DNA from: Gilvimarinus sp. DA14
GTDB lineage: Bacteria > Pseudomonadota > Gammaproteobacteria > Pseudomonadales > Cellvibrionaceae
Assembly: GCF_024204685.1 (NCBI RefSeq)
Contig: NZ_CP100350.1
Location: forward strand, 930,001-994,000
Reading direction: 5' to 3'
Length of the DNA: 64,000 bases
The first letter of the stretch is position 1. Each line of letters starts with the position of its first letter. Both the position numbers and the translations under genes were made by a program. Positions 44,361-64,000 of this stretch are shown here, in pieces. The notes below the pieces were generated by a model. It was given only the letters and a program-made list of their open reading frames with translations, was not told the origin of the DNA and did not search any database.

Positions 44361-45797
44361 ATGCTTTCATCCCGTCGCCTTTTTCTATTATTTTCATTAA
44401 CCGTCACGAGCCTCGCTGGATGCTCCGGCTCTTCCAGTCAAGATAATACTACGACCAGCTCATCCAACTCGAGCGCATCCAGCCTGCCATCAACACCACA
44501 AAGCTGTAGCTCAAGCACAGCGCTTATTATCGACTCAATTACCGAAAACGACAGCGACGAGAACAATGGCGCTGCAAAGGCTATTGACTACAACCTTTCC
44601 CCGGAATCACGCTGGTCATCGCTCGGCGACGGCAAAAGCATTACATTGGATATGGGCACTCAGGCAACGATAACAGAAGTAAAAACCGCCTGGCACAAGC
44701 ACGATGAACGAACAAGCTTTTACGAGCTGGAAGCGTCAACCGATGAAACTGACTGGGTGAACCTAGTAGCCAACGGGCAGTCCGAAAATACTCAGCTTTT
44801 CACCTCAGCCACGTTTGACGAAGTTACTGCTCGCTATATCCGCTTAATAGGTCACGGAAACTCCAACGATTTATGGAACGATTTAATTGAAGTAGAAGTT
44901 TACGGCTGCGACGGGCTGGAGGTGGCCTCCGCGCAACCCAGCGGAGCACTTGAGCCTACCGACTTATCCCCGCTCAGCCCCCCTTCGGATAATTTTGATT
45001 TATCTCGCTGGTATCTAAGCGTTCCAAGCGATAACGACAATAATGGCAATGCCGATAGCATAAAAGAAAAGCAGCTTAACAACGGCTACGAAAACCCCGA
45101 CTACTTCTTCACTGGTGACGACGGCGGCATGGTGTTTCGGGTTTACCCCACTGGCTTCAAAACATCAGCAAATACCAGCTATACACGAACCGAACTGCGC
45201 GAGATGCTCCGTGCCGGCGACACCAGCATTGACACAAAGGGCGTGAATGCCAACAACTGGGTATTTGGTAGCGCCCCTGCTTCAGACAGAGCAAAAGCCG
45301 GTGGCATAGACGGAAATATGCGCGCTACACTAGCCGTTAACAGAGTCTCGACCACTGGCGAGAACTATCAGGTGGGGCGCGTCATCATCGGCCAAATACA
45401 CGCTAACGATGATGAACCCATTCGGCTTTACTACAGAAAACTCCCCGACAACAGCAAAGGAGCTCTCTATTTCGCACACGAAATTAAAGACGGAGACGAC
45501 CAGTGGCACTCTCTGATTGGAAGCAGAAGTGACCAGGCAGCAGATCCTAGCGATGGAATAGCCTTAAACGAAATTTTCAGCTACGAAATTGACGTTCGCG
45601 GTAACACCTTAAGCGTGCATATTTATCGCGAAGGTCAACCCACCATCTCTAAAAGCATTAGCATGCGCGACAGCGGCTATGATCAGGGCGGCCAGTATAT
45701 GTACTTTAAAGCGGGCGCTTACAACCAAAACAACAGCGGCGAGGACACTGACTACACCCAAGTAACCTTCTACGCACTAGAGCAGCGACACAACTGA
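44361..45797 (+). CDS. Surface lipoprotein alginate lyase, CBM32-like domain plus PL7
   Basis: The protein has 478 residues with AGGAG upstream of the ATG. A lipoprotein signal ends at LAGC (Cys21), followed by a Ser-rich linker. A discoidin/CBM32-like domain (about 52-188) comes next, with WSSLGDGKSITLDMG and ARYIRLIGHGNSNDLWNDLIEVEVYG. The PL7 lyase domain (about 205-476) has the conserved blocks YTRTELREM, IIGQIHAND and YFKAGAYNQN, which carry the Arg/Glu, Gln/His and Tyr of the active site. It cleaves alginate by beta-elimination, probably at the outer membrane. It is the first gene of the alginate region, separate from the main operon. Confidence 0.92.
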   Translation: MLSSRRLFLLFSLTVTSLAGCSGSSSQDNTTTSSSNSSASSLPSTPQSCSSSTALIIDSITENDSDENNGAAKAIDYNLSPESRWSSLGDGKSITLDMGTQATITEVKTAWHKHDERTSFYELEASTDETDWVNLVANGQSENTQLFTSATFDEVTARYIRLIGHGNSNDLWNDLIEVEVYGCDGLEVASAQPSGALEPTDLSPLSPPSDNFDLSRWYLSVPSDNDNNGNADSIKEKQLNNGYENPDYFFTGDDGGMVFRVYPTGFKTSANTSYTRTELREMLRAGDTSIDTKGVNANNWVFGSAPASDRAKAGGIDGNMRATLAVNRVSTTGENYQVGRVIIGQIHANDDEPIRLYYRKLPDNSKGALYFAHEIKDGDDQWHSLIGSRSDQAADPSDGIALNEIFSYEIDVRGNTLSVHIYREGQPTISKSISMRDSGYDQGGQYMYFKAGAYNQNNSGEDTDYTQVTFYALEQRHN

Positions 45798-46225: not shown

Positions 46226-49200
46226 ATGCGAAATAACAATAAGTTCGCTCAAAAGTCATCACGCAAGCATAGTTTCAACCGCTCAATGCTGGTTAGTGCT
46301 ATAGCCGCTATTTCATACACCGGCATGGCGCAAGCTCAAGATTCATCGGACGAAATGCTTGCACTTGAGGAAGTTGTGGTACAAGGCACACGCGCCACGA
46401 TTCAAACCACCATCGACATTAAACGAAACTCCACCACGATCGTAGACGGTATGTCCGCCAACGATATTGGTGACATGCCTGCCCTTTCCATTGGTGAAGC
46501 ACTAGAATCTATTACTGGCGCGTCTTCACACAGGGAAAATGGCGGCGCTACTGAAATTTCGATCCGCGGGCTCGGCCCGTACCTGAGCGCCACCACTTTC
46601 AACGGCCGCAACGCCACAAACGGCAGTGGCGACCGCTCAGTAAACTTCTCTCAGTTCCCATCCGAGCTAATCAACAAACTGGCCATCTATAAAACTCAAG
46701 ATGCCAGCTTGATCGAAGGTGGTGTAGCAGGTCTAATCGCCCTGGAAACCGTTAGACCTTTGGATTTCAACAAGCGACGCCTGCAAGTCGAAGCAAAAGC
46801 CGGCTTCCAACCAAATCAACAAAACATTGAAGACTCAATGTCAGGAGATGTGGGCTTTCGCGGCAGTGCCAGCTATGTAGACCAATTTGAGTTTGACAAT
46901 GGCTCTGCACTGGGGATCTCTTTGGGATATGAGCAAAGCGATATTGCTCAGCCTGAATCTGAAATGCGTGCATCCAGTCCCAGCGGTACCTCGCTGTTTG
47001 CCTGTATCAATGATCCGAGTGTGACTGATCGAGGTTACTACCTGGAATCAGCCGGTGACTGTGAAGACCCCACCACCGGGCCTTCTAACTCTGGCGATTA
47101 CAACACTGAGATCAACCCAGAAACTGGGGAAGCCTATGACGCAGGCAAAGACTATGCGTTTGCCCCCAGCTCCAACAGCTATCGTCAGAACGACACATCT
47201 GACGAGCGTGAGGCTTTCTTTGCTGCACTTCAGTTCCAGCCTAATGATCGCACGGATATTAATATCGATTACCAAACCTCCGAGCGTATTCAGGCAGAGA
47301 AACGTCACGACTTAAACTTTGCCAACCAAAAGCGCACTACCCCAGGGGTTACACCAGAAAACCTGGTGGTATCTGAAAACGGCGCTATTCACAATTGGGT
47401 GGGCGAAACCGCCATCGAATCAAACAGTGAGCTCTATCGTCGTGACGAGAATTATGAGGGTTACGGGATAAACATCGCCTATGATATCACCCAAGACTTC
47501 ACCGTTTCGGCCGACTACTCATTCTCCGAAACTACACGTGTAGAAAACCAAATCTTACTGCGTACACAGTCTGACGATCGCAACGTATACGCTGAAGATA
47601 TCTCTCAATATCGCCCCATGGTTCAATGGGATACCGATTCGGGCATCCGCCAATACGAGATCACCGGGTTTGATGTGACCGACCATTCACTGTTCTCGGA
47701 TCGCTACCGTGCTCGTATTGACAGTGACGTGGATCGTACCAACACCATCGAAGCTTTCCGTGCAGACTTCGAATGGCGCTTAGACGGCATGATTACAGCC
47801 GTTAAAGGCGGTGTCCGTCACTCCGAGCTCGAATATCTGGACATGGGCCCCACTGTACGCAATGAGTTTGAAGTGACCATTGGGGAGTACGAGTTCCTGT
47901 CTCAAGTAAACGAAACCTGTGCGATCGATTTCCCTGAAAGTGACTTTATGGGAGCAGAACGCGACGGCGCACTGTTTACTATCTTGGACGATCAGGGAAA
48001 TATTGTTAAGGAAACCAACAGCTGGGCTACATTCGATACCGCCTGTGCTGTTTCCATGCTCGCCGAGCATACCGGTAACAGCATGGATTTCCCAGAAATG
48101 CCGGAATCCCTGGCCAGCACGACTGATGTGACCGAAACCACAGACGCCGCCTACATCATGGCTGACTTTGACAGCGAGATGTTTAATAAAACCGTTCGCG
48201 GTAACTTTGGTGTGCGTGTTATTCAAACCGACGTTGAGTCCATCGGTTATCGCACCCCCTATACCATTGAAACCTCAGACGAGGGCATCCTCTCACTGGT
48301 CCCTGTAGAGAGTGCAGATCTTGAGCGCGTAGAAGCAGGCGGTGACTACACCGAAGTACTGCCAAGTGTTAACGTCATTATGGATCTCAGCGAAGAGCTG
48401 ATGCTCCGCGGTGCGGTATATCGTGGCTTATCACGCCCAGAGCCTGCAGATCTCAGTTATCAACGCGGCTTTACCGTAAGCAGCGAAGAAGACATTACCG
48501 AGCTGGATGAGCTGATTCAAAACGTTAGTGGCGATGGTAATCCCAACCTGCAACCACTGACCTCTTGGAGCTTTGACGCAGCCATCGAGTGGTACCCGAA
48601 TCAAGATACCATGCTGGCTTTCGGCCTCTATCACAAAAAATTCCAAGGCGGTTTTGATACTACCCGGACTACCGAAGAGTTTTTAATTGATGGCCAGATG
48701 GTCCCTGCCGATTTTGATTTGACTGAAACCAACGACGACACCAGCAATCTCACCGGTATCGAGATCACGGCCACTCATAACTTCTCCTATCTGCCGGGGC
48801 TGCTTAGCGGATTTGGTTTCAAAGCGAGCTACAACTACGCCGATTCTGACTTTGAATTTGAAGACAGCAACTATGGCGACATTACCGTGCGCGATGACGA
48901 GGGCAATGTCGTTTATCAAACAGATGGTATTGTCGAACCGGGCAACGTTCCCGGCTTCTCAGATCACGTTTTCTCTGGACAGTTGTACTTCTCTGAAGGC
49001 GATTTTGACGCTAGCTTGATCTACAAATATCGCAGCGAGTACTTTCAGCCCTACACTAGCAATGGCACACGTTTGCGCTTTGTTGGAGATACAGGTGTAT
49101 GGGAAACACGTATGTCTTACTACATTACCGACGACGTCCGTGTAAGCCTGGAAGCAATTAATCTGTTTGACGAGCCGAAAAAACAATATCACTACACCCG

Positions 49201-49270
49201 GGATTACCTTGGCGAGCTGAACAGCTTTGGTCCCCGTGTATTTATGGGTGTAAAAGCTAAGTTCTTCTAG
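46226..49270 (+). CDS. TonB-dependent receptor (TIGR01782-like), probable alginate-oligosaccharide importer
   Basis: The protein has 1014 residues with a strong GGAGG ribosome-binding site. A signal peptide ends near residue 38 (SYTGMAQAQ), and a TonB-box-like ALEEVVVQGTR follows. The plug domain (about 55-190) contains ISIRGLGPYLSATTFNGR and GVAGLIALETVRPLDF, typical of the large proteobacterial sugar receptors. The 22-strand barrel ends in the outer-membrane signature GVKAKFF. It lies between two alginate-lyase units, so uptake of alginate fragments across the outer membrane is likely. There is no SusD partner, as expected outside Bacteroidota. Confidence 0.92.
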   Translation: MRNNNKFAQKSSRKHSFNRSMLVSAIAAISYTGMAQAQDSSDEMLALEEVVVQGTRATIQTTIDIKRNSTTIVDGMSANDIGDMPALSIGEALESITGASSHRENGGATEISIRGLGPYLSATTFNGRNATNGSGDRSVNFSQFPSELINKLAIYKTQDASLIEGGVAGLIALETVRPLDFNKRRLQVEAKAGFQPNQQNIEDSMSGDVGFRGSASYVDQFEFDNGSALGISLGYEQSDIAQPESEMRASSPSGTSLFACINDPSVTDRGYYLESAGDCEDPTTGPSNSGDYNTEINPETGEAYDAGKDYAFAPSSNSYRQNDTSDEREAFFAALQFQPNDRTDINIDYQTSERIQAEKRHDLNFANQKRTTPGVTPENLVVSENGAIHNWVGETAIESNSELYRRDENYEGYGINIAYDITQDFTVSADYSFSETTRVENQILLRTQSDDRNVYAEDISQYRPMVQWDTDSGIRQYEITGFDVTDHSLFSDRYRARIDSDVDRTNTIEAFRADFEWRLDGMITAVKGGVRHSELEYLDMGPTVRNEFEVTIGEYEFLSQVNETCAIDFPESDFMGAERDGALFTILDDQGNIVKETNSWATFDTACAVSMLAEHTGNSMDFPEMPESLASTTDVTETTDAAYIMADFDSEMFNKTVRGNFGVRVIQTDVESIGYRTPYTIETSDEGILSLVPVESADLERVEAGGDYTEVLPSVNVIMDLSEELMLRGAVYRGLSRPEPADLSYQRGFTVSSEEDITELDELIQNVSGDGNPNLQPLTSWSFDAAIEWYPNQDTMLAFGLYHKKFQGGFDTTRTTEEFLIDGQMVPADFDLTETNDDTSNLTGIEITATHNFSYLPGLLSGFGFKASYNYADSDFEFEDSNYGDITVRDDEGNVVYQTDGIVEPGNVPGFSDHVFSGQLYFSEGDFDASLIYKYRSEYFQPYTSNGTRLRFVGDTGVWETRMSYYITDDVRVSLEAINLFDEPKKQYHYTRDYLGELNSFGPRVFMGVKAKFF

Positions 49271-51580: not shown

Positions 51581-52125
51581 AAGTGTGTATCCTTATTGTT
51601 AATTGATGACTTGATACGAATTTCTTACAGATTTAATTATTGTTGATTCACGTTAGTTTATTTACCAAGACACAGCATATTCAGAGCGTGACTTCTTTTA
51701 ACAAAAAGCCGTTTAACTTCAAGTTAAGTCTCATTTTGAACTCACCGAACAGTTAAACCTTTAGTCTCAATCCCTTAGTTTCCAAACCAAAAGTGCACTT
51801 TTCTGTCGCAGAGCCTGCCTACTTATCACAGTGAACCAAACCGCGTTCTTATCCCAGCATATGTTGTCTAGCGTGGAAAAAGGCGGGCTTCTGCCGAAGC
51901 CCGTTAAGCGGGTAACCACTCTCGTTAACCCATCGGAGAGGACCACAGACACTGTGGTAAAAACATGGCCTTGACGCCAATACATACTGGCGCTGTTGAG
52001 TTAACACCTACAGCGCCAAACAAACTTGCTGAATCAAAAGTTTCAATCATTTACTCCCTAATTATCATTATTTATAGGAAAGCATAATCGCCAGATAGGA
52101 AGACCTTACCGAATTGACTGCACTT

Positions 52126-52144
52126 TTGTCAACCGATTTGACAA
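52126..52144. promoter_or_regulatory. Dyad TTGTCAA-CCGAT-TTGACAA with back-to-back -35-like boxes
   Basis: A perfect 7-bp inverted repeat with a 5-base spacer. Each arm contains TTGACA reading outward, and the minus strand reads CGGTTGACAA, sharing GGTTGACA with other alginate-unit upstream regions. It is about 550 bases before the repeat-lipoprotein gene on the minus strand. Confidence 0.4.
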
Positions 52145-52341
52145 TAACAGCTTCAACCAATTTATAGACTCTAGAAATTAATTAATAAAGGCTTATATTT
52201 CAGCAACTTATGAGACAGAATCGGAAATGCAGAACGGAAACACAAAACTGAGAGGTAAGAGCTGCAAACGATGCGAGATCACCGTTTGCTCTACCCCTCA
52301 CCAAGTTACGGCCAACAAAGGAGGGGTGGTGATAACACCGA

Positions 52342-52379
52342 AGCAGCGCCACTTAGAAAATAGGCTAGGTGGCGCTGCT
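52342..52379. terminator. Strong stem-loop after the PL7 gene (operon end)
   Basis: An 11-bp perfect stem AGCAGCGCCAC (52342-52352) pairs with GTGGCGCTGCT (52369-52379) around a 16-base loop, starting 16 bases past the PL7 stop. No T-run follows on the minus strand. It may stabilise the mRNA end or act as a non-canonical terminator. Confidence 0.5.
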
Positions 52380-52394
52380 AAGTAAGGCTATAGG

Positions 52395-53492
52395 CTATTT
52401 AACTGTCAAGGACGAAAAGGTCGCCTGCACATAGTGACCGTTTTGATAGTCTTCCTCCCAAACACCACTGCCCGCACAGCCCGCATACCACATGCCCTCC
52501 TGGTCTTTACTGCTGCATTGGTTGTAGGCGCCTGCTTTAAAGTAGAACCAGTCACCGCTATAACCGCGGGGGTTATCGAGTTCGTCCACCACGCCATTAG
52601 GATCGACATTATTCGATAAATCTACCGAGTATTCGACCGTCGGTTTACCCTCTGCAGAGAAGGTCAGATTCATAATATTGCCGTCAACATCAACGGTGTA
52701 ACTGAACGTTTCATTAAGCTTGAGCCCAGCTTCTCCTGGATCCTCAGACGAATCCCATAGATTGCCCCAGACAGGGTAAGCAATGTCGGTGCGATTGGGG
52801 TCATCACGCTCTAAGTTCCGTTCGTACGTCCAAAACACCGAACCGTGTTCGTGATTAGGCCATTTCTTGAAATAAATTTTTAAAGGTTCATTACCATAAC
52901 CAAAACCGCGAGCCATTGAATCATCCTTGCCCGCATGAATTTGACCTACCACTACGGAGAAGGCCGGTTTCTTGTCGGGATTTTTAGCGTCGACGGCCAC
53001 ATGATTAACGGCCAAAGTAGCCGATAGTTGCCCGCCAATCGCCCCATATTTACTGGCTTTAGAGTGAGCTGCCAGGGCAAAATTATTGCCGGGTGCTTTG
53101 GTTTTAGAGCCCTCGGGATCAACCATTTGTCGCAGCTCGCTGCGGGTATTGGTAGAGTTGGCAGTGGTTATCGCTTTATTGGGTGCCGCAAAAACCACGC
53201 CGCCCTCTTCATTTGCGTAGAAAAAACGCGGTTCCAGCAAGCGGCTGATGTTGGGCGGGCCTACTTCGTCTATCTTTCCGTCGCGATTACTATCCATCGG
53301 CAGCGTTATCTTCCAATGCGAGAAATCCATAACAGAGCCGGGAATCCTTTTACCGATCATCGCATCGGCGTTATAAGTTTCTTTCTTGGTTTGTGTTTGA
53401 CCCTGACAGGCAGTCAGAACAGCAACTGAAGAAACGATTGCCATAGCAGCAACTGGGATGCGTCGCATCGACTTTTGAAGGTTTATTATCAT
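52395..53492 (-). CDS. PL7 alginate lyase, lipoprotein
   Basis: The protein has 365 residues with GGGAGA six bases before the ATG. The lipoprotein signal ends in LTAC (Cys29). The PL7 domain (about 55-364) has the three family blocks: NTRSELRQM, VVVGQIHAGKDD and YFKAGAYNQCS. Three cysteines sit near the C-terminus (NQCSS, YAGCAG region). Unlike the PL7 protein at 44361 it lacks a carbohydrate-binding domain. It is the last gene of the eight-gene operon, 38 bases after the FBPase gene. Lipidation suggests outer-membrane attachment, where it would act on polymer or long oligomers. Confidence 0.92.
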   Translation of the reverse strand: MIINLQKSMRRIPVAAMAIVSSVAVLTACQGQTQTKKETYNADAMIGKRIPGSVMDFSHWKITLPMDSNRDGKIDEVGPPNISRLLEPRFFYANEEGGVVFAAPNKAITTANSTNTRSELRQMVDPEGSKTKAPGNNFALAAHSKASKYGAIGGQLSATLAVNHVAVDAKNPDKKPAFSVVVGQIHAGKDDSMARGFGYGNEPLKIYFKKWPNHEHGSVFWTYERNLERDDPNRTDIAYPVWGNLWDSSEDPGEAGLKLNETFSYTVDVDGNIMNLTFSAEGKPTVEYSVDLSNNVDPNGVVDELDNPRGYSGDWFYFKAGAYNQCSSKDQEGMWYAGCAGSGVWEEDYQNGHYVQATFSSLTVK

Positions 53493-53530
53493 CTTATTTC
53501 TCCCGCTAACTTTATGAGTTGGATATAGGA

Positions 53531-55183
53531 TTAAATTAACTGAAATTTCAAATTAGAGCTTCGCTCATGAATAGAAAATAAATAGGTATTATCAGCATCG
53601 GCGATAAAAACCATACCGGCAACGCCCGTTAAATCTCGATATGCACCGGAAAATCCACCGTCTACGCAAACCAAATGTCCATTGGCAAACCGTGGTGACT
53701 CACCGTCCTTGAGTTTTACCGGCAGATGACCATTGACGATAACACTACTGCCATCGCCGCCAAGTTCTTTAGCAACTGAAGCAATAAACGTCTGATTATC
53801 CCTTGTATTAAAGTAAGGATTCTTGCCTTCATCGTGAAAGCGTTTGTCGGCGACGAAGTAACGCTCGAACGTTGTCATCTTATTACGTCCAAACAAAGGC
53901 GATAAAGGCCCGCACCACAGATACCAAGCGATATCAGATAAGTACAGACAATTTTTACTTCCGCGCCGAGAATAGGCCTTGCGCAATTGCAGCTCGAAAG
54001 CATCGAACAAGGCTCTACCGCTGAGTTCTCTCTGGTTCACCTGAAAGGGTGCAGGCTTGAGATCCTCGTTCACTGGGAGACAGCCGTGAAACATGACAAA
54101 CCGACCGTCCGATGCTAACAAACTACCGTTGGCAAACAAAAAATTGATGTGTTTCTGCAGCCGTTCAGACTCGACAAACTGCGCTTTCAAATCCTCTATA
54201 ACCGACCACTCTTGGTCAGTTAAAGCAGAAGTGGAATTTGAGTTTACCGTGGGGAAATATGTGTCGGATAGGCCAACTGATTCGCCCTCTAAGATGATGA
54301 AGCCATTAGAAAAATCTACTTTTTTCAGCATGGCTCTATCGGCGAGAGCAAAGTTCGGATTGCGCTCTATGATCTGCTCTTCAAGTTTAAACTGCAACAC
54401 CGCTATGGCTTTATGCATAGCCTCCCAAGGCTGATTGGGGTCCGTCGTGGTCGAGCCTACAGAAAACTGTTCAGCTGGTTCGCACGCATAAGAATCACGA
54501 GCAAGCTGCGCCAAATTATTAAGATTTATACCATAGTCTCTGGTAAGGGTTTCGATATGCCCATACTTGAGACAAAGTCGCACTACCGTGGCGATGCACT
54601 CTAGCGACCCGGAGGCCGCCCCCATCCAAAGGACATCGTGATTACCCCATTGAATGGTGACGTCAGGCATGCCTTGCAAACGATCCAGAATTTTCGCCGC
54701 ATCTGGGCCACGATCAAAAATATCGCCAACCACATGCAAGCGATAACACGCCAATGCCAGCACCGCTTTGGCAATATATCGACACAGTTGCTCCCTATCT
54801 TGATAATCTAGCAAAGCGATAGCATCACGGCGCTGATCGTCAAGCACACCGTTAATGGCGTATTCATCCAGAATATTTAAAAACCAGCTGCAGCTGGCGA
54901 ATGTCTCTACCCCGACGGGCCAAAAACGGCGATCCTGCTTAAATCTAAGCAGAATTTCCATCATGGCCGTAAGTTCCGCAAAGTGGTCCGAGAGCCCCGG
55001 AGAAGTCGCCTCTTCACCGAGTAGGTAATGACGCAAAGCGCTTAAGGGAGCGCCAGGACTCTGCCTCGCGTAATCTTCCAATAGCGCCTCTAATATGCCG
55101 AATCGTCTTTCCGTTAACGCGTCGAACATATCCCCCTGTGCATGTAAATCCGATATAAAGACTTTGTAGGGCTGTGCAGGCAT
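53531..55183 (-). CDS. Fructose-1,6-bisphosphatase class III
   Basis: The protein has 550 residues. It has a metallophosphatase core with FISDLHAQGD (residues 10-18), VVGDIFDRGPDAAKILDRL, QWGNHDVLWMG and VNGHLPVKLKDG, the pattern of class III (Bacillus Fbp-type) FBPases. That class is usually about 640-670 residues, so this one is on the short side. It hydrolyses fructose 1,6-bisphosphate to fructose 6-phosphate. It lies between fba and PL7 with gaps of 33 and 38 bases, so it belongs to the alginate operon. Gammaproteobacteria normally rely on class I or II enzymes, so transfer is possible. Confidence 0.9.
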   Translation of the reverse strand: MPAQPYKVFISDLHAQGDMFDALTERRFGILEALLEDYARQSPGAPLSALRHYLLGEEATSPGLSDHFAELTAMMEILLRFKQDRRFWPVGVETFASCSWFLNILDEYAINGVLDDQRRDAIALLDYQDREQLCRYIAKAVLALACYRLHVVGDIFDRGPDAAKILDRLQGMPDVTIQWGNHDVLWMGAASGSLECIATVVRLCLKYGHIETLTRDYGINLNNLAQLARDSYACEPAEQFSVGSTTTDPNQPWEAMHKAIAVLQFKLEEQIIERNPNFALADRAMLKKVDFSNGFIILEGESVGLSDTYFPTVNSNSTSALTDQEWSVIEDLKAQFVESERLQKHINFLFANGSLLASDGRFVMFHGCLPVNEDLKPAPFQVNQRELSGRALFDAFELQLRKAYSRRGSKNCLYLSDIAWYLWCGPLSPLFGRNKMTTFERYFVADKRFHDEGKNPYFNTRDNQTFIASVAKELGGDGSSVIVNGHLPVKLKDGESPRFANGHLVCVDGGFSGAYRDLTGVAGMVFIADADNTYLFSIHERSSNLKFQLI

Positions 55184-55216
55184 CTAAAGGGTACTCACCA
55201 AATATACGCGTCGGCG

Positions 55217-56296
55217 CTAAAACACACTTTCGCAATTTAATTGGCGGCAGATGTCCGTCAATTTAGAAGAAAAGCCCTCTTCGGCTTTGCGCAACCAGAC
55301 CCTTGGATCATAAAACTTCTTGTTTGGTGCATCCGGACCCTCAGGATTGCCAATTTGAGCCTGAAGGTAATCTTTACGATCTTCATAAAACTCGCGCACA
55401 CCATTCCAGTAAGCCCACTGCAAATCGGTATCCACATTGACTTTCACTACACCGTACTCGATACCTAAAGCGATATCTTCGGCCGACGATCCCGAGCCAC
55501 CGTGAAACACGAAGTCCACTGGGTTATGACCCAAGTTGAAGGTTTGCTTCAAATGATCTTGAGAGTTACGCAGGATTTCTGGCCGCAAGGTTACATTGCC
55601 CGGCGAATACACACCATGAACATTACCAAAGGCCGCTGCGATAGTGAATTTATCGCTGATCTGGCTGAGCTTCTCATAGGCATATTCAACTTCTGAGGGC
55701 TGCGTGTACAAGCGGGATGAGTCTATTCCCGTATTATCGACACCGTCTTCTTCACCACCGGTAACACCCAGCTCGATTTCAAGCGTCATACCCATTGCAC
55801 TCATGCGCTTAAGATACTCGCAGCAAGTTTCAATATTCTCTTCCAAAGGCTCTTCGGACAAATCAATCATGTGTGAAGAAAACAACGGCTTACCGTGTTG
55901 ACGGTAATACTCTTCTCCGGCGTCCAGCAAACCATCGATCCAAGGCAAAAGTTTTCGAGCGGCGTGATCGGTGTGCAACATCACGTTGGCGCCGTAAACT
56001 GGCGCCATCGCATGGACGTGTAAGGCAGCAGAGACAGCGCCGTTTATAGAGCCTTGGTGGTTAGAGTTCGCTACAGATTTACCACCGTAAAACGCAGCCC
56101 CACCGTGTGATAGCTGAATAATGATTGGCGCACTAATCTCAGCAGCAACCGCCATTACGCTGTTAGCCGTGCTAGAGCTAGTAATATTGACCGCAGGCAA
56201 AGCCATGTGCTGTGCCTTGGCGTAGGCGAAGGTCTTCGAAACCGCATCACCTAGAATAACGTTTTCAGGTAAGGTTAGCTTATTAATCATGGGCAA
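55217..56296 (-). CDS. fba: Class II fructose-bisphosphate aldolase
   Basis: The protein has 359 residues. Zinc and substrate motifs are clear: MLHTDHAARKLLPWIDG, LEIELGVTGGEEDGVDN, GNVHGVYSPGNV and FHGGSGSSAEDI. It is the E. coli FbaA-like (class IIA) form. It joins dihydroxyacetone phosphate and glyceraldehyde 3-phosphate or splits the product. It lies between kdgK and the FBPase gene with gaps of 36 and 33 bases. In this setting it most likely runs in the gluconeogenic direction, using triose phosphate from KDPG cleavage. Confidence 0.94.
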   Translation of the reverse strand: MPMINKLTLPENVILGDAVSKTFAYAKAQHMALPAVNITSSSTANSVMAVAAEISAPIIIQLSHGGAAFYGGKSVANSNHQGSINGAVSAALHVHAMAPVYGANVMLHTDHAARKLLPWIDGLLDAGEEYYRQHGKPLFSSHMIDLSEEPLEENIETCCEYLKRMSAMGMTLEIELGVTGGEEDGVDNTGIDSSRLYTQPSEVEYAYEKLSQISDKFTIAAAFGNVHGVYSPGNVTLRPEILRNSQDHLKQTFNLGHNPVDFVFHGGSGSSAEDIALGIEYGVVKVNVDTDLQWAYWNGVREFYEDRKDYLQAQIGNPEGPDAPNKKFYDPRVWLRKAEEGFSSKLTDICRQLNCESVF

Positions 56297-56332
56297 CTCT
56301 CTTGTGGATTGTTTGCTACATGCAGATCTACA

Positions 56333-57262
56333 TTACTGAAAGTTAGGCATATCACTTTCAGCAATAATCGCACCTTTATGTTGTATCACCGTTGAGGCCA
56401 AGATATGCCCCATTTTGGCAGCCAATTCATAACTCTCGCCTTGTGAGCGATAGTGCAGGTAGGCAGCGTTGAAGGAGTCCCCTGCAGAAGTCGTATCAAC
56501 CACCTCTACCCGACGGCCGCTCACGACTTCGCGACTGGATCCGTCGTCGACACAACAACCTTCGGCACCCATTTTCAACACAATTTCACGGGCGCCACAT
56601 TTACGAATTCGATCAATGATCGCGTCTTTATCTGTCTCACCAAAAAGCTGAGCTTCATCATCAATGGTGGGGAGGGCTATATCGCTGATAGCGTAAGCCC
56701 GACTGAACGCCTTTTGAGCTAGATCAGTGCTTTCCCATAAAACCGGACGGTAATTTCCGTCAAAAACTATTTTTTTTCCGTCATCTTGCAATTCAGATAA
56801 TAATCTGAATAAACGGTTCCGAGACGGCTCATCAATAATCGCTAGGCTAATGCCGGAAAAGTAAATAAAATCAAAGTGTGATAGTTGCTGACGAAGCAGT
56901 TGCGCTTTGCCATCGCTATCGAGGATGTACTTTGCAGCTGAATCGTTACGCCAATATATAAAGTGACGCTCGCCTGTTTTATCGTTACTAATGTGGTAAA
57001 TCCCGGGACGTTTGCTGGAATCCTTTCGCACTACCGATGTATCAACACCAGATTTTTGCCATTGAGATATCATCCACTGGCTGGCCTGATCGTCACCCAT
57101 TGCCGTAACAAAACTGGACTGAGAACCGAGTCTCGCCAAATACACCGCCGTATTCAAAGTATCTCCACCGTAACCAATCACGGCAGGAACCTTGGCCAAT
57201 TCATCCGATAAGCTACCGCTGGACATCTCCAGCATACATTCCCCAATAGCTGCAATCTTCAC
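56333..57262 (-). CDS. kdgK: 2-keto-3-deoxygluconate kinase (PfkB family)
   Basis: The protein has 309 residues. It opens MKIAAIGECMLEMS, has the sugar-binding YGGDTLNTAVYLARLG and the C-terminal PfkB signature VDTTSAGDSFNAAYL with the catalytic Asp. KdgK phosphorylates KDG to KDPG, the step before cleavage by KDPG aldolase. It lies between the SDR reductase and the aldolase gene (gaps 58 and 36 bases). The KDG specificity is inferred from context and family; no KDPG aldolase gene is in the window. Confidence 0.9.
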   Translation of the reverse strand: MKIAAIGECMLEMSSGSLSDELAKVPAVIGYGGDTLNTAVYLARLGSQSSFVTAMGDDQASQWMISQWQKSGVDTSVVRKDSSKRPGIYHISNDKTGERHFIYWRNDSAAKYILDSDGKAQLLRQQLSHFDFIYFSGISLAIIDEPSRNRLFRLLSELQDDGKKIVFDGNYRPVLWESTDLAQKAFSRAYAISDIALPTIDDEAQLFGETDKDAIIDRIRKCGAREIVLKMGAEGCCVDDGSSREVVSGRRVEVVDTTSAGDSFNAAYLHYRSQGESYELAAKMGHILASTVIQHKGAIIAESDMPNFQ

Positions 57263-57320
57263 ATTCTACCTCTTAGTTAACACAGAGACCCTTGGCCCCA
57301 CCGACTCTAAAGATTTGCCC

Positions 57321-58073
57321 TTAGGAGAAGATCAGACCGCCGTTCACGTCCATATTTAGACCCGTTAAGAAGGTGGCCTCATCGCTAGCGAGATAAGCAA
57401 CGACATCCGCAACTTCATCCGGCGAGCCTTCACGACGCAGAGGTGTTGCTCCAGCAACATTCTTGCGCGCTTCGTCTTTGGTAAATGTATCGTGGAAGGT
57501 GGTGCTAATCATGCCCGGACACAGTGAGTTAACACGAATACCGCAGGGGCCCAACTCTTTAGCCATGGCGCGGGTAAAGGTCATCACTGCACCCTTGGCA
57601 GTAGCGTACGCCGAAGCACCAGGACCTCCCCCGTCGCGGCCGGCCTGGGAGGAGAAGTTAATCACCACGCCACCCTGCTCCATATGGGGAGTAACATATT
57701 TGGTCAGCAAAAAGGTACTGGTAAGGTTCAAACGCACTACAAAGTCAAAAAAGTCCGGGTCCATTTCGTCAATGGTTTTCCGCGCTACAAGACCACCAGC
57801 CACATTGACCAAAATATCAATTTTATCGCCGAATGCCTCTTGGGTTTTAGCAACCAGATTTCGCACCTCATCGGGCTGCCCCATATCGCCACGAACCAGA
57901 ATGGCCTCGGCTCCCAGGCTTTTCACATCGGCAAGTGTTTTTTCAGCAGCTTCCTGATTACCGAAGTAATTGATTACCAGTTTCGCCCCCTCCTGAGCCA
58001 ATTTTAGCGAGATCGAGCGACCTATATCACGCCCACCACCGGTTATTACGCAAACACGATTTTTAAGTTTCAT
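57321..58073 (-). CDS. SDR-family oxidoreductase, probable DEH reductase
   Basis: The protein has 250 residues of the classical short-chain dehydrogenase type. The cofactor loop is VITGGGRDIGRSIS, the active-site Ser is in INFSSQAGRDGGG and Tyr-xxx-Lys in AYATAKGAVM. Between kdgF and kdgK, the expected job is reduction of 4-deoxy-L-erythro-5-hexoseulose uronate (DEH) to 2-keto-3-deoxygluconate. Similar SDR enzymes do this in other alginate degraders. Cofactor choice (NADH or NADPH) cannot be told by eye. Confidence 0.85.
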   Translation of the reverse strand: MKLKNRVCVITGGGRDIGRSISLKLAQEGAKLVINYFGNQEAAEKTLADVKSLGAEAILVRGDMGQPDEVRNLVAKTQEAFGDKIDILVNVAGGLVARKTIDEMDPDFFDFVVRLNLTSTFLLTKYVTPHMEQGGVVINFSSQAGRDGGGPGASAYATAKGAVMTFTRAMAKELGPCGIRVNSLCPGMISTTFHDTFTKDEARKNVAGATPLRREGSPDEVADVVAYLASDEATFLTGLNMDVNGGLIFS

Positions 58074-58183
58074 AGAAAGCTCACCTGATGATTAAATATG
58101 TATATGCAAGAATCCGTATAGCGCCGCTACCTTGAGCGATACATGGATGAGAATGTAGCCGCTACGCTACTCTGCGCAAAGAC

Positions 58184-58531
58184 CTACTTACCACCGACCA
58201 TATCGGCGCGAATCGGACTGAAAATATCAATCAAGATGCCGGCCTCAAGACACACAGCCCCATGCTCCTCATTCGGCGGAACATAAAAGCAATCGCCACC
58301 TTTTAAAATTTTCTTCTCGCCATCAATCATTACTTCGAATTTACCACGCTCTACATAGGCCACTTGAGAGTGGAAATGGCTGTGAACATAGCCTTCACTG
58401 CCCTCTTCAAACGTAACCCGCACTACCATAATCTGTTCGTTGTAACCCATGATGCGCCGTTTTACACCGGGGGCTACATCCTCTTCTTCAATGGTGTCCA
58501 ACTCAATAAACTTACTTGACTCAATCAGCAT
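58184..58531 (-). CDS. kdgF: KdgF-type cupin, unsaturated uronate linearising enzyme
   Basis: The protein has 115 residues from the ATG at 58531, with AGGTGA five bases before; a GTG nine bases earlier is less likely. It is a single cupin with the metal ligands HSHFHSQVAYVERGKFEV and VPPNEEHGAVC. KdgF converts the cyclic 4,5-unsaturated monouronate from alginate or pectin into the open-chain keto sugar DEH, speeding a slow spontaneous step. It lies between PL17 and the SDR gene (gaps 69 and 110 bases), which fits this role. Confidence 0.9.
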   Translation of the reverse strand: MLIESSKFIELDTIEEEDVAPGVKRRIMGYNEQIMVVRVTFEEGSEGYVHSHFHSQVAYVERGKFEVMIDGEKKILKGGDCFYVPPNEEHGAVCLEAGILIDIFSPIRADMVGGK

Positions 58532-58600
58532 AATCGTCACCTGTTCAATCGAGAATCAAATTAAAGCCCACTCACAGTACTCGCTAAGAGGGCATAAATA

Positions 58601-60760
58601 TTAGTTATCACTAATTTTTGAAACCTTGGCATTAACCGGCACCAATCCCTTGCCATCACTGGAAACAACAAGTTCGTAGGTTCCCGCATCACCCATATTT
58701 ACAGTAAGCGTAGCACCGGTGTCCGTCGTGGTATAACGTAAACTTTTTATTCGGCTGTAAGCATCTTGAACATATTCGGCGGTACCGTTGTACTCACCAT
58801 GAGGCTCAATTACTGCGTACATCACGGCATCGCGTGCGTCTAGCCGGCGAACAATTCCCTGATCACGACGAAGATTGTGATTCGGATCATTCGCTCCCAG
58901 CTGAAAAAATAACGTCTGCGCATTTTCACCAGCTTCTGCTTGATAACCGTAGGTGTAAGAATAGAAACGATTATCCAGCAACCAGGTCAAGCGATTACTG
59001 TGGTCAGCGTTGCTCCCCTGAGCGCGTAACAGCATATGCTGATAACCGTTGTCATCGCCCATGGCTCCCCATGCATTAAATGTTTCAGCGTCGCTCAGGT
59101 TATGATCAATAATCTGCCCGTTGAAATGCAGTGGCAGATCATAGCTGTGCTTAGCATCCGCCCGCACGCTGAATAGGTCAATCACAAAGGGCTCTATGGA
59201 GTCAGGTTTTACCAAAGCTTGCACGCGGCTCATCTGCACGCCTTTGTAAGCGGTATCAATACGGCCAATGCTAATGTCGGCCAAATCGTCTCGTACAAAA
59301 GCAACTTGCTCAGCGGCATGTTGATTCGCCTTATCCAAGTCAGCACCAAACTGGCTCTTTTGATCCACAACAAGGGTGTTGTGGGCTACCGTTTGCTTCG
59401 CCCAGCTGTCATTTTCTGGAAGGTAGTGACCGCCATACTTTGCCTCAACATTGAGGTAACGAGCAGCGCCATAATCAGTTACCACTTCCTGGCCGTTGTC
59501 ATACAGCTGCCAGCTTAAGCGGTCAAAGTGGCCATGCCCCATGCCCTGACTGGTATTTTTTGCTACCACCAGAGTCCCTGTTTCATTGTCGCCGGATCGC
59601 ATCAGGGTCAATGCACCTTGATCGCCTTTTGCGCCATCGCGATAAGTTTTAGACTCATAGTCATATGGCGCTACTTCATTGTTCGCAATAATCTCAGAAA
59701 GAGCCACTCCACCTGCACTCAGACTGACCTTCTCCTGTTGCCGAGCAATATCGCTCAAGGTCTTATCTGAGGTGATTTCAAATGCAATCGCTAGAGCTTG
59801 AACTAACTCCTCTGTTTTTATGCCTTTGTCTTTAATAGCGTCGTTAATCGGTAAAAAAAGACCGTTATAACTTAGCTCAATGGTGGTATAAATCGCCTTA
59901 AGCAAAATGCCGTCGCGATACTCAAAAATTGCTTTTTGAGGTTCGTTGGTTTCAATAGCTTTAGCAAACCACACAAATGGCATCAGGGCATAGCGCTGAT
60001 AGTATGGCCCCTCTGTGTAATAGCCATCGGGAGAGAAAAGCTCATCCAACTGTTTATAGAACCCAGATTCGCCGCTTTTGTCCAACCCCTTTAAGGCCTG
60101 TTCAACATAGTCATGCCGACCCGTAGCATAGCCAACCATACCCACTGCAGCGACGGCCCATGTGCCATGGTTATGTATCTTATCAAAGGTCTGCGGCTGT
60201 CCCTTAGATAAGTAATCCGCCACTGGATAGAACAATTCACGCTGGAATCTATCGTTCTGTTCATCCGTAAATGTTTGAGCCACCATATCGTAGGCCTGAA
60301 TGGCGTACACCAGCCACACGGCCTCATTCAGACTCTGCCAAAATAGCTTACCAGGCGTTTGCTCTTTCTTTTCAGGATGCAGACCTAACTGTGGATACAT
60401 GTCCGCGTAAGCAGATAGCATTGCACCCACATAATCACTATAAAGACTATCGCCACTTAACTGATACTGCATGGCGGCTGCGTACATCGCTTTATAGTTG
60501 CGTTTGTGCTGCTCGTGGGTATAGCCACCACCTGCATCTTTGGGCCAGGGAACCACTACACCTGCGGCAAGAGCTTCATCAGCGACTCGTTTATTATCCT
60601 TCTTGGACTGCTCCAACAGCCCAGCGGACGCTTCTCGCAAAGCAGCAATGTCTGTTTCGCTAATAACCAATGAAGGCGACTCGGCGACGGCCGTTTGATA
60701 ACAACCTAATAGAAGGCAACCAATGGCTCCCGCTCGAACAAAAAAAGAAGGTAATCGCAT
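58601..60760 (-). CDS. PL17 oligoalginate lyase
   Basis: The protein has 719 residues. The signal peptide ends either in a lipobox-like LLGC (Cys20) or at AVA-E (residue 26). An alpha/alpha-barrel alginate-lyase domain (about 60-380) contains KIHNHGTWAVAAVGM (Asn197, His198) and DGYYTEGPYYQRYALMPF (Tyr254). As I recall, the Asn/Tyr pair reported for Saccharophagus Alg17C (201/258) has the same spacing. A heparinase II/III-like beta domain follows (about 390-570). PL17 enzymes release monouronate exolytically from oligoalginate. The start is 6 bases after the PL6 stop. Confidence 0.93.
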   Translation of the reverse strand: MRLPSFFVRAGAIGCLLLGCYQTAVAESPSLVISETDIAALREASAGLLEQSKKDNKRVADEALAAGVVVPWPKDAGGGYTHEQHKRNYKAMYAAAMQYQLSGDSLYSDYVGAMLSAYADMYPQLGLHPEKKEQTPGKLFWQSLNEAVWLVYAIQAYDMVAQTFTDEQNDRFQRELFYPVADYLSKGQPQTFDKIHNHGTWAVAAVGMVGYATGRHDYVEQALKGLDKSGESGFYKQLDELFSPDGYYTEGPYYQRYALMPFVWFAKAIETNEPQKAIFEYRDGILLKAIYTTIELSYNGLFLPINDAIKDKGIKTEELVQALAIAFEITSDKTLSDIARQQEKVSLSAGGVALSEIIANNEVAPYDYESKTYRDGAKGDQGALTLMRSGDNETGTLVVAKNTSQGMGHGHFDRLSWQLYDNGQEVVTDYGAARYLNVEAKYGGHYLPENDSWAKQTVAHNTLVVDQKSQFGADLDKANQHAAEQVAFVRDDLADISIGRIDTAYKGVQMSRVQALVKPDSIEPFVIDLFSVRADAKHSYDLPLHFNGQIIDHNLSDAETFNAWGAMGDDNGYQHMLLRAQGSNADHSNRLTWLLDNRFYSYTYGYQAEAGENAQTLFFQLGANDPNHNLRRDQGIVRRLDARDAVMYAVIEPHGEYNGTAEYVQDAYSRIKSLRYTTTDTGATLTVNMGDAGTYELVVSSDGKGLVPVNAKVSKISDN

Positions 60761-60766
60761 AAATAA

Positions 60767-62977
60767 TTACTCAGAAAAACTATTATTATCGGCAGTAAAG
60801 GTCGATTCCATACCTGGAACAACATCCTCCACTTGGTACAGCGGCTTGTGGTTGTAGGTATTACCCTCAATACGAATAACCGGTCCACCTACAGTATGCT
60901 GCACTAGAATAGGAGCACTGTTATCAAAATGGCTGTTTTCAATCAGGCCACGCTGAACACCGTGCAATAGAATACTATTACCTTGAGAATCGGCTCTCGG
61001 TGAGGAGCTCACGGTAACCTCATCGACATGAACATGAGGGCCAAAAGTACTCTCATCGGTGCCGCCACGATACACGGTCATCAAACTGCCTGTAGCATTA
61101 TTTACCGAGGAGTTCTTGACCGTAATGTATTCGGCGTTATACATGCCGTAATCGTCTTTTTCAGAATCCAGTTTTAAGACTGAACCCTTGATGTTGGCGA
61201 AGCTGGAATCCTGAACCAGAACTTCATCGGCAAAGGTGCTCTTGCGCAGCTTAATTACGTCAAAATCCTTATTAATATCCAGATCGATGACTTCCACACC
61301 TACCAGCTCCAAGGAAAAGTTCTTATTCATTGGCTTACTGTCACTGCGAATCACCGCATTTGCTTTATCATCCGGAGCACGCACACCACTGATAGATACA
61401 TCCTGTAAACGCAGAGCGCTGCCGTTCAACAAGTCAACCAGGGACTTTCTGGCGAAAGTCAGTCGGGTTTTACCCTTACCGGCACCACGAATCACCAGAG
61501 GCTTATCCAGCAGCAAGGTTTTGGAGAAGTGATACTCACCTTCACTCAACACCAACTCGGCGGCACCGGAAATCTTGGCATAAGCATCCAGCACTGTATC
61601 CGTTCCCGGTTTTACTCGAACACTCTCATTAATGGTGAATCGATCAGACTTTTCATACTTGGGGTACCATGACACCCCAACCTCTTCTTTTTTTACCGGA
61701 AGGTCAGGCTGAGGCGACGCTAATCCTTTGACTTTTTCGAAACCATCGCTCAGCTCATCACCAACGATAAAATTGGCTTTGTTTCCGCTAAACTCGATAC
61801 CTTTAACACTGTCATGCAGCTCGAACGGTGACTCACCCGAATCATTCACGACAACGTTATTGGTGAAGCGGCTGTTGGACGGTATGGCGCTACGCTCTTC
61901 GTCAGACCCTGCACCAAAAATAATACGCTCTACATTGACCAATGTATTGCCGGAAATCACAGAGTTCTTCACCTGGTGATAACGGTTAATCGGGGAGTCG
62001 GGCACCCCATTCATAACCACCAGAGCGCCACCAAAACGAGAGCCAGTCAAACCCGACATATAGTTGTTCTTAACTACTTGGTCGGCATTAATCACCCGAA
62101 TACCGCCGGTATGATCGACGCCATTGCCGATAAAAGCATTTCCTTCCACCAGGTTCCCATTACCGTGACGTAATGTCAGGGTGCCGCGCGACTCGAAAAA
62201 TACATTATCCCGGAAGACATTCTTACCGGACTTGTTAGAAATGATTTCCACTTCACCGTCGCAATGCTCAAAGTAGTTATTGGCAACAGTCGTTAGAGAA
62301 TCACTCAGAGAGTAGTGGCTAGTACCAATGCGCAAGGTCTCACCACCATTCGAGCCCAATACAGGCCGGGGGCCAAAGTAGTTGTACTCAATTACATGAT
62401 TGTTCTCGCGGCTGTGCTCTGTATCCAGACGCACCGCCATGGTTACACCTTTATTGCGCTTAAAACTGAAGTGATTGTGATCAATACGGTTATTCTTTCC
62501 GTAGATGCTGACCCAGTAATCAGTTTCATAGCGATCTGGATTACTGAAATCATCAATAACCACTTCAGTTAGACGACTATTAACCGCGACCGTAGAATAA
62601 TCACTATCAGACTCAGGCTTAGCGGTACGAAATGAGATAACCGTATCCGAAGGGGTGTAGCCGTTTTTGAACACCAAGCCACGCACTACCAGATGTTCAC
62701 CTGCCAGCTTTAAATTTGAACGCCCGCTGATCACTGCCTTGCCGGGGTTTTCCGCGGCCAAAGTGATAGGAGCTTGCTCGGTGCCTACCGCAGCAAACAC
62801 AAGCTCAACATCGCGCCACACGCCGTCTTGCAACAGAACTCGATCTCCAGGCTGCAATTTTTCAACGGCCTGCTGATATTCTGAGTAATCTGAAACGGAA
62901 TAATCTTTGGCCGCGCTCAGCGCAGAAGCGATGGATAGAAGGAAGAATCCCGAGAAGATAAAAAATTTATTATTCAT
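60767..62977 (-). CDS. PL6 alginate lyase (chondroitinase-B-like)
   Basis: The protein has 736 residues from the ATG at 62977 (MNNKFFIFSGFFLLSIAS). The in-frame extension upstream crosses a terminator-like hairpin and is rejected. A signal peptide ends near residue 22. The parallel beta-helix PL6 domain (about 25-400) has the catalytic Lys and Arg region EIISNKSGKNVF and GTLTLRHGNGNLVEGN, and a second beta-helix (about 440-730) follows. This two-helix layout is typical of PL6_1 enzymes. It degrades alginate, often poly-MG or poly-G. It is the first gene of the main operon. The ribosome-binding site (GGTG) is weak. Confidence 0.93.
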   Translation of the reverse strand: MNNKFFIFSGFFLLSIASALSAAKDYSVSDYSEYQQAVEKLQPGDRVLLQDGVWRDVELVFAAVGTEQAPITLAAENPGKAVISGRSNLKLAGEHLVVRGLVFKNGYTPSDTVISFRTAKPESDSDYSTVAVNSRLTEVVIDDFSNPDRYETDYWVSIYGKNNRIDHNHFSFKRNKGVTMAVRLDTEHSRENNHVIEYNYFGPRPVLGSNGGETLRIGTSHYSLSDSLTTVANNYFEHCDGEVEIISNKSGKNVFRDNVFFESRGTLTLRHGNGNLVEGNAFIGNGVDHTGGIRVINADQVVKNNYMSGLTGSRFGGALVVMNGVPDSPINRYHQVKNSVISGNTLVNVERIIFGAGSDEERSAIPSNSRFTNNVVVNDSGESPFELHDSVKGIEFSGNKANFIVGDELSDGFEKVKGLASPQPDLPVKKEEVGVSWYPKYEKSDRFTINESVRVKPGTDTVLDAYAKISGAAELVLSEGEYHFSKTLLLDKPLVIRGAGKGKTRLTFARKSLVDLLNGSALRLQDVSISGVRAPDDKANAVIRSDSKPMNKNFSLELVGVEVIDLDINKDFDVIKLRKSTFADEVLVQDSSFANIKGSVLKLDSEKDDYGMYNAEYITVKNSSVNNATGSLMTVYRGGTDESTFGPHVHVDEVTVSSSPRADSQGNSILLHGVQRGLIENSHFDNSAPILVQHTVGGPVIRIEGNTYNHKPLYQVEDVVPGMESTFTADNNSFSE

Positions 62978-63001
62978 ATTAACTACACCACACTTTTGCC
63001 C

Positions 63002-63036
63002 AAAAAAGCGGCCGGACCTCCATAGGAAGTCCGGCC
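63002..63036 (-). terminator. Terminator-like hairpin in the leader of the PL6 operon
   Basis: An 8-bp stem GGCCGGAC/GTCCGGCC (63010-63017 and 63029-63036) is followed on the minus strand by GC and six T. It ends only 24 bases before the PL6 start codon, so it would stop transcripts before the operon unless relieved. It could be an attenuator, the end of a small RNA, or the terminator of a lost gene. Confidence 0.65.
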
Positions 63037-63161
63037 CAAGGAGAGCCACACACTAGAACCAGCGCTATCGCTTGCTTCTAGCCTGGGACCAGTGCTCGTA
63101 TTCGCAAACTCAATGCACAACCCTGAACCTAAAACTCGCCTGCATTGATCACTTGCAAACT

Positions 63162-63191
63162 AGACTACCAATCAGAATACAATTGTGTCAA
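63162..63191 (-). promoter_or_regulatory. Promoter candidate of the PL6-PL7 operon
   Basis: On the minus strand TTGACA (63191-63186) is followed after 18 bases by TAGTCT (63167-63162). The -35 lies within ATTGGTTGACA. Transcription from here would give a leader of about 180 bases containing the hairpin at 63002-63036. Confidence 0.45.
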
Positions 63192-63425
63192 CCAATCTTT
63201 ATTACAGAATAGCCAATGACAGCTCCCAGAAAGGCCCGGGCAGCGGCATCACACCAGCCGATAGCCCCCGACCCGCATAGGAACTTGAAAACCTGCCAAA
63301 AAGTAAAAGCCCATAAATAACCCATAAGACACTGATTTTATTATCAAAAATTTGCTTTGGGAGATATAAATGTTAGAAATCGCTAGACCCAACGTCACTT
63401 TTGCACCGATTCGTCTACCACAATG

Positions 63426-63443
63426 TATTACCAATTGATAATA
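63426..63443. promoter_or_regulatory. Near-palindrome upstream of the GntR gene (candidate operator)
   Basis: TATTACCAATTGATAATA is palindromic at 16 of 18 positions, centred on CAATTG, 62 bases before the GntR start. FadR-type regulators often control their own gene through such dyads. It includes an ATTGGT half-site on the minus strand. Confidence 0.45.
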
Positions 63444-63505
63444 TTCATGTTAGGATCAGCGGAAATCTTTAGACGTCTTGATAAAAATTCGTGGACCACA
63501 GACTA

Positions 63506-64000
63506 ATGAATAAGCCAAGCGGCACCAAAACCCAAAGAACCTACCGCAAAGTGGCAGAAAAAATGCTGAAAGCCTTAGATTCAGGAGAATTTCCTGCTGG
63601 CGCTCGACTGCCGCCAGAAAGAGAGCTCTCAGAAAGATATGGCGTTAGCCGCCCTACTGTTAGGGAGGCCATCATCGCCCTGGAGGTAATGGGACGAGTT
63701 GAAGTGCGGACAGGTTCAGGGGTCTACGCCGTTAAGTCCTTCAAGGCAAAAAGCGACAACCCTCGCGAGTACAGTCCCTTTGAAATAACCGAAGCCCGAG
63801 TTCTGATTGAGTCAGAAACCGCCGCCCTGGCCGCATCCACAATGAGCGAAGAGGACCTGCAAGAACTGGCCGAAGCGCTGGAAGAGATGATTCTGGAGAA
63901 CAAGAGCGGCGACCTCACCTCCGAGGTCGCTGATAAAAAGTTTCATACAATCATTGCTCAGTCCACACGCAACCGCCCTCTAATGAGCATCATTGAGCAT
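63506..64000 (+). CDS. GntR-family (FadR subfamily) transcriptional regulator, partial
   Basis: I read 165 residues from the ATG at 63506 to the right edge. The winged helix-turn-helix (about 14-75) has LPPERELSERYGVSRPTVRE and ALEVMGRVEVRTGSGVYA. The start of an all-helical FCD ligand domain follows (FEITEARVLIESETAALAA), with DKKFHTIIAQSTRN carrying likely metal or ligand residues. It is divergent from the PL6-PL7 operon and is the obvious candidate regulator of the alginate genes. The ligand is probably a degradation intermediate such as DEH, KDG or KDPG, which is inferred. Confidence 0.92.
   Translation, partial: MNKPSGTKTQRTYRKVAEKMLKALDSGEFPAGARLPPERELSERYGVSRPTVREAIIALEVMGRVEVRTGSGVYAVKSFKAKSDNPREYSPFEITEARVLIESETAALAASTMSEEDLQELAEALEEMILENKSGDLTSEVADKKFHTIIAQSTRNRPLMSIIEH

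Follow-up and report, generated by a model that had tools for sequence, protein, structure and literature searches.

A probable gluconeogenic module within an alginate-utilisation operon of Gilvimarinus sp. DA14

Introduction

Why should an operon for the breakdown of alginate encode a fructose-bisphosphate aldolase (FBA) and a fructose-1,6-bisphosphatase (FBPase), when the usual descriptions of polysaccharide-utilisation loci stop at the monomer or at 2-keto-3-deoxy-6-phosphogluconate (KDPG)? The question arises from a stretch of 64,000 nucleotides of Gilvimarinus sp. DA14 (NZ_CP100350.1, positions 930,001 to 994,000; hereafter the window), in which positions 52395-62977 hold eight co-oriented genes on the minus strand. 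The locus continues as far as central metabolism. Three genera of one family and a member of another order share this extension, the FBPase of which comes from either of two families. It is probably an operon for alginate utilisation into which a gluconeogenic module is built. If so, such loci carry the steps by which a newly acquired carbon source is linked to biosynthesis or to redox balance; this would bear on the plasmid spread of alginate use and on the engineering of alginate-fed strains. The locus also gives the short FBPase subfamily described below a clear physiological setting.

Gene Content of the Operon

The genes run in the order PL6, PL17, kdgF, SDR (short-chain dehydrogenase/reductase), kdgK, class II fba, class III FBPase and PL7 (PL, polysaccharide lyase), with successive intergenic gaps of 6, 60, 110, 58, 36, 33 and 38 nt. 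Open reading frames, Pfam and NCBIfam bear out the first-pass annotation of the window, which had described eight co-oriented genes at these coordinates with gaps of 6-110 bases.

60767..62977, minus strand: PL6 alginate lyase (chondroitinase-B family), first gene; PF14592, E 1.4e-110; start ATG 62977
58601..60760, minus strand: PL17 oligoalginate lyase; PF07940 and PF05426; best NCBIfam match NF042990 at 802 bits, below its cut-off of 1400
58184..58540, minus strand: KdgF-type cupin; PF07883; slot identical in 7 genus members
57321..58073, minus strand: SDR, probable reductase for 4-deoxy-L-erythro-5-hexoseulose uronate (DEH); PF13561/PF00106; a TGGGR loop that would fit NADPH use
56333..57262, minus strand: kdgK, PfkB-family kinase for 2-keto-3-deoxygluconate (KDG); PF00294; best NCBIfam match NF052444 at 356 bits, below its cut-off of 400
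55217..56296, minus strand: class II fructose-bisphosphate aldolase (fba); PF01116, E 6e-77; TIGR01520; start codon either TTG 56296 or ATG 56290
53531..55183, minus strand: short-form class III FBPase, identified by PF06874 (E 8e-143, 477 bits), motifs and clade
52395..53492, minus strand: PL7 alginate lyase, last gene; PF08787, E 1e-57

Endolytic and exolytic lyases (PL6, PL7 and PL17) are all encoded, and KdgF, the DEH reductase and the KDG kinase lie in one run, with their substrate use predicted and kdgK scoring below the NCBIfam cut-off. The PF07883 cupin we take to be kdgF from its position in an operon of this kind. The KDPG aldolase gene (eda) is sited elsewhere in the genome and not in the operon; it is not counted as required for an alginate operon, because 26 of the 27 family loci without aldolase and FBPase genes show none either. 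The gene identities thus support the five-gene route from alginate to KDPG that had been read from the sequence initially.

The aldolase exceeds the cut-off of FruBisAldo_II_A TIGR01520 (518 bits vs 348) and carries, in an alignment to 3qm3, the E. coli-type active-site blocks of class II FBA type A. The FBPase exceeds the curated PF06874 cut-off (477 bits vs 27), with a match that spans profile positions 162-583 of 639 and not the whole length, the N-terminal part being present, diverged and approximately 30 residues shorter. Its motifs DxH, GDxxDRG, GNHD and GHxPVK are invariant across 14 sequences and presumably form the metal site, as in calcineurin-type phosphatases.

Predicted Metabolic Role

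PL6, PL7 and PL17 would cut alginate to unsaturated monouronate, which KdgF and the SDR would convert to KDG and KdgK, in turn, to KDPG. Cleavage of KDPG yields glyceraldehyde-3-phosphate (GAP), according to PMC8778563. Triose-phosphate isomerase would then supply dihydroxyacetone phosphate; its gene, tpiA, lies elsewhere in this genome and within the operon in two other genera and in Catenovulum. The class II aldolase of the operon would join the two trioses to fructose-1,6-bisphosphate, the irreversible hydrolysis of which by the class III FBPase would give fructose-6-phosphate, and the supply of hexose phosphates for cell wall, lipopolysaccharide and the oxidative branch would rise with alginate flux. 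Enzyme activities and flux direction are here predicted from sequence, as are co-transcription and induction, with control presumably exerted through one promoter and a divergent GntR regulator. The gluconeogenic module is supported in that the recurring genes (isomerase, aldolase and FBPase) correspond to the very steps from GAP to fructose-6-phosphate.

Conservation Within the Genus

Among the best 80 matches of the genome-contig scan, the closest named genome is that of Gilvimarinus gilvus (Cellvibrionaceae). All eight genes occur in identical order in seven of the eight genus genomes, the window included and L060 and G336, probably one genome, counted once; the eighth member, G334, lacks both PL17 and FBPase III. 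This order is not due to chance, as all seven FBPase-bearing members keep it at 54-98% protein identity. Identity to the window is highest for kdgF (89-98%) and fba (88-93%), followed by the SDR (80-92%), PL17 (69-79%) and FBPase III (54-69%).

Recurrence in Other Alginate Loci

The family survey covered 11-20 kb around PL17 and was aimed at class I and class III FBPase and at both kinds of aldolase. PL17 was found by E-value in 38 of 144 family genomes, one of which (G342, 2e-4) was set aside to leave 37 with a strong match. Both fba and an FBPase gene lie in the alginate run of ten of these, namely the seven of the window's genus, G404, G311 and G313. The alginate operon of G404, the one genome of genus g138, contains kdgK-fba-FBPase III-tpiA, while in G311 and G313 (genus g126) the run contains kdgK-tpiA-fba-class I FBPase. 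Further afield, 18 plasmid records match PL17, of which the seven with at least 80% coverage were examined. One, from Catenovulum adriaticum, a member of another order, holds a full cassette (kdgK-eda-tpiA-fbaA-class 1 FBPase) and one, from Vibrio penaeicida, pairs an SDR gene with fbp in its alginate island; the remaining five have neither within 10 kb. The Catenovulum operon (pCadTS8_2, NZ_CP109967.1) resembles that of the window as an alginate operon which continues into fba and FBPase, but differs in its class I FBPase, its eda and tpiA, and a TonB receptor gene in the run.

The linkage is therefore not unique to the genus, since it is also present outside it. A synteny search had been proposed with the first-pass annotation, under which the idea would fall if no other genome kept the linkage; the genus and G404 keep it, and G311, G313 and Catenovulum do so with a class I FBPase. 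The FBPase slot of the module is filled from two Pfam families, class III or class I, the folds of which are unrelated. Equal function from different genes in an equal operon place makes the strongest case that selection has acted on FBPase activity, and the recurrence of the add-on from partly unrelated genes suggests a selected function rather than an accident. The original proposal that fba and FBPase form a gluconeogenic add-on thus gains support from other alginate operons, which fill the FBPase slot with a class I gene and add tpiA.

Several observations weigh against this interpretation. The alginate run is without fba, tpiA and class I or III FBPase in 27 of the 37 family genomes, and in a class-wide sample none of the eight PL17 genomes other than the window's own has these genes within 17-20 kb; GlpX was not sought in either survey. 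The module is a minority form among PL17-bearing genomes, and these 27 family and eight class-sample genomes indicate that it is dispensable for alginate use. FBPase III diverges faster within the genus (54-69%) than its neighbours (69-98%), as judged from identities only, with dS (synonymous divergence) saturated or not computable in most pairs. In both the window and G057, a weak promoter-like match precedes FBPase III, where fba ends. Lastly, further aldolases, a class I FBPase and a pyrophosphate-dependent phosphofructokinase (PPi-PFK) are encoded outside the operon, and hexose phosphates can therefore be made without it.

Two of the surveyed loci contain genes split over two frames, from a real break or a sequencing error: tpiA of G313 (L217:13780-14593) and PL17 of G295 (L240:8536-10703). 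In G295, eda is part of the run; a class I fbp that lies a short way upstream, on the opposite strand, was left out of the count.

Outside the PL17 loci, fba and fbp again occur as pairs close to genes for substrates whose carbon enters metabolism at triose phosphate. Catenovulum pCadTS8_1 carries GH88-hypothetical-fbaA-fbp (L265:12915-14954), and Pseudoalteromonas HL-AS2 carries fbp-aldolase beside glycerol genes (L267:12004-13980). Rhamnose genes occur with fbaA; taken together, the GH88, rhamnose and glycerol groups with fba and/or fbp lie on three Alteromonadales plasmids. Published precedent exists in the glpFKX operon, in which the class II FBPase GlpX is co-encoded (PMC5892879, on Mycobacterium tuberculosis). 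That operon likewise places an FBPase beside the genes of a substrate entering as triose phosphate, but its substrate is glycerol, its FBPase is of class II and it has no aldolase.

Origins of the Aldolase and the Short FBPase

The aldolases of the window's genus and G404 form one clade (support 100/100). A second clade (90/92) unites the aldolases of G311, G313, Catenovulum pCadTS8_2 and a Pseudoalteromonas rhamnose operon; both come from a tree that excludes fam_L020 and fam_L024 and leaves the deep order among both clades and the housekeeping aldolases without resolution. Since each module type has its fba from a clade of its own, the function probably arose by assembly on two occasions, or else parts of it were replaced. 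The stand-alone genes of the window's genome are 61-62% (tpiA) and 57-63% (class I fbp) identical to the cassette genes of G311 and Catenovulum.

The FBPase III proteins of the window's genus and G404 separate from 22 long-form sequences as a clade of their own (100/100), in which G404 is marked as a long branch. They are 548-582 amino acids long, vs 648-684 for the long forms, of which they lack approximately 30 N-terminal and 55 C-terminal residues. Class III FBPases of Bacillota and others (PF06874) share family and catalytic motifs with this protein, which differs as a short form in a separate clade. All eight short forms found lie in alginate operons, eight being a minimum, as the contig scan comprised the best 80 matches and further ones may exist. 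PF06874 scores over its cut-off in nine of 144 family genomes, these being seven of the eight in the window's genus, G404 and G394, the last with a long form on a contig different from that of its PL17. An order sample gave four of 293 (three strong matches, G000, G057 and G226, and one 32-bit fragment), and a class sample one of 369, the window's own.

It is highly unlikely that this short protein is no longer an FBPase and instead serves as a phosphatase for some other metabolite, such as a dead-end uronate or KDG phosphate. Its shortened termini, its own clade and its fast evolution would accord with such a change, as would a search by sequence of solved structures at E up to 1, which returned no relative bar one spurious match. 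However, the metallophosphatase motifs are invariant, and in G311, G313 and Catenovulum it is a class I FBPase that follows fba in the alginate operon.

Related Genes Elsewhere in the Genome

The operon fba is the sole PF01116 class II aldolase gene found in the genome. The stronger candidate claim, that it is the only fructose-bisphosphate aldolase gene, was dropped, since two class I FbaB genes (NF006707) lie elsewhere, one of them adjoining the PPi-PFK gene. A class I FBPase gene stands beside tpiA; neither a PF00274 aldolase nor GlpX was detected in a genome search that did not extend to FBPase classes IV and V. The search for other fba/fbp copies suggested with the first-pass annotation has thus yielded two class I aldolases and a class I FBPase. 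With these and the PPi-PFK present, the associated claim that gluconeogenesis would be switched on solely by growth on uronates is not supported as worded.

One may ask, then, whether general housekeeping genes for aldolase and FBPase merely happen to lie in the operon at present and are expressed on any carbon source. That the genome's one detected class II aldolase sits in the operon would suit this explanation, but the presence elsewhere of the class I aldolases, class I FBPase and PPi-PFK makes it very improbable, as does the finding that the single member of the genus without PL17 has no FBPase III either.

The second class I fructose-bisphosphate aldolase gene is followed, co-oriented, by kduI and an SDR gene (L140:15847-18640; G000:C1:271846-274639), the latter with gluconate 5-dehydrogenase as its best NCBIfam match, and is thus a second aldolase gene of this genome with a uronate link. 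Six family genomes (G015, G144, G168, G189, G229 and G269) have no PF00316, PF03320 or PF06874 FBPase and one PFK-family gene each, as if gluconeogenesis in them proceeded via a reversible PFK.

A Redox Cycle as an Alternative

The genes eda, edd, zwf and pgi are clustered elsewhere in the genome (by Pfam), together with genes read by sight as pgl, gap and pyk. With fba and fbp also present, the gene set of the EDEMP (Entner-Doudoroff, Embden-Meyerhof-Parnas and pentose phosphate) type is complete, pgl by sight only. The EDEMP cycle of Pseudomonas is such a return of trioses. As there, triose phosphate would re-enter the Entner-Doudoroff pathway by way of FBA and FBPase; the window differs in encoding the two genes within a catabolic operon, with the flux predicted.

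It is possible, though unlikely, that the module serves to close a redox cycle rather more than to produce biomass, with trioses passing via FBA, FBPase, Pgi and glucose-6-phosphate dehydrogenase (G6PDH) to 6-phosphogluconate and KDPG and so providing NADPH for the DEH reductase. By arithmetic, each GAP that is returned in full (via FBA, FBPase, Pgi, G6PDH, Edd and Eda) yields one NADPH plus one pyruvate, and DEH is isomeric with a pair of pyruvic acids (C6H8O6). Conversion of DEH to two pyruvates would close exactly, because the one NADPH of the returned GAP equals that spent per DEH, provided that the SDR is NADPH-dependent. The clustering of zwf, edd, eda and pgi (with pgl by sight) is consistent with this, and the TGGGR loop of the SDR has Arg where the NADPH-type A1-R has Gln and the NADH-type A1-R' has Glu, the loops being those quoted in PMC8778563. 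An SDR gene followed by fbp in the Vibrio penaeicida alginate island and an fbp of Pseudoalteromonas KG3 within approximately 9 kb of sugar kinase, kduI and NAD(P) transhydrogenase genes point the same way. On the other hand, cofactor use by the SDR is a prediction only, the SDR of V. penaeicida shares just 37% identity and has no such Arg, and the Arg is also present in two module-less operons (L215 and L240), so the occurrence of the module is not accounted for by the loop. The fuller version, an operon-encoded closed cycle in some marine bacteria that would run through a short class III FBPase dedicated to alginate and make one NADPH per DEH with no net redox change, in which the recurrent tpiA-fba-FBPase cassette would be the transferable part, appears slightly less likely again. 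A gluconeogenic module is the preferred interpretation.

Comparison With Known Alginate Operons

Alginate operons of this general kind are present in Zobellia. The majority form in the family shares with the window lyases, kdgF, SDR and kdgK in similar order with a GntR gene nearby, and most family operons, like the window's, are without eda in the run. The window adds the class II aldolase and FBPase, and its major facilitator superfamily (MFS) gene belongs to the divergent GntR unit, outside the run. The alginate operon is thus known in kind, and its FBPase/aldolase extension is unusual and recurrent. The open-access literature, in titles, abstract openings and passages and with few subscription papers, yielded no description of FBPase or aldolase genes in an alginate operon; the portions seen of PMC5613140, PMC8967155, PMC7953866 and PMC13390454 likewise mention no FBPase in an alginate cluster.

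Promoter, Leader and Regulator

Three features lie upstream of PL6.

63162..63191, minus strand: promoter-like TTGACA-18-TAGTCT, from an alignment of 7 genus members and then a motif scan
62998..63105, minus strand: structured 5' leader with an intrinsic-terminator-like hairpin at its end (stem 63036-63010 and a T run)
63491..64000, plus strand, continuing past the window (whole in L040:492-1286): divergent FadR/GntR-family regulator, by NCBIfam

A promoter-like TTGACA-18-TARYCT site precedes PL6 in all seven genomes, from the alignment of which the motif was itself taken. Matches in the within-operon gaps are scattered and weak, in at most two of the seven genomes at any one gap, and the promoter scan gave 5 matches vs 16.4 expected in shuffles. 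The leader consists of a structured stem and then a 12-pair terminator-like hairpin immediately before the start codon, and the hairpin may act as an attenuator. Similar hairpins occur in five of the seven genus members, with 5 of 33 pairs changed on both sides among only five sequences. A covariance model built from these five leaders, which it recovers by construction, found no further convincing site across 25 sources (next matches E 0.009 and 0.24), and an Rfam scan of 52000-64000 gave no match at E up to 1. The alternative PL6 start, GTG 63049, falls inside the leader, and ATG 62977, as first annotated, is retained as the best start. The best match of the regulator, ExuR NF008571, scores 137 bits and so stays under the cut-off of 396. 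An MFS carrier gene runs with the regulator gene, divergent, just beyond the operon.

Past the last gene of the operon, a PL7-related gene (44361-45797, plus strand), the protein of which is approximately 30% identical to the operon PL7 and to the latter's orthologue, adjoins a TonB-dependent receptor gene (46226-49270, plus strand). The two likely constitute a second part of the alginate locus.

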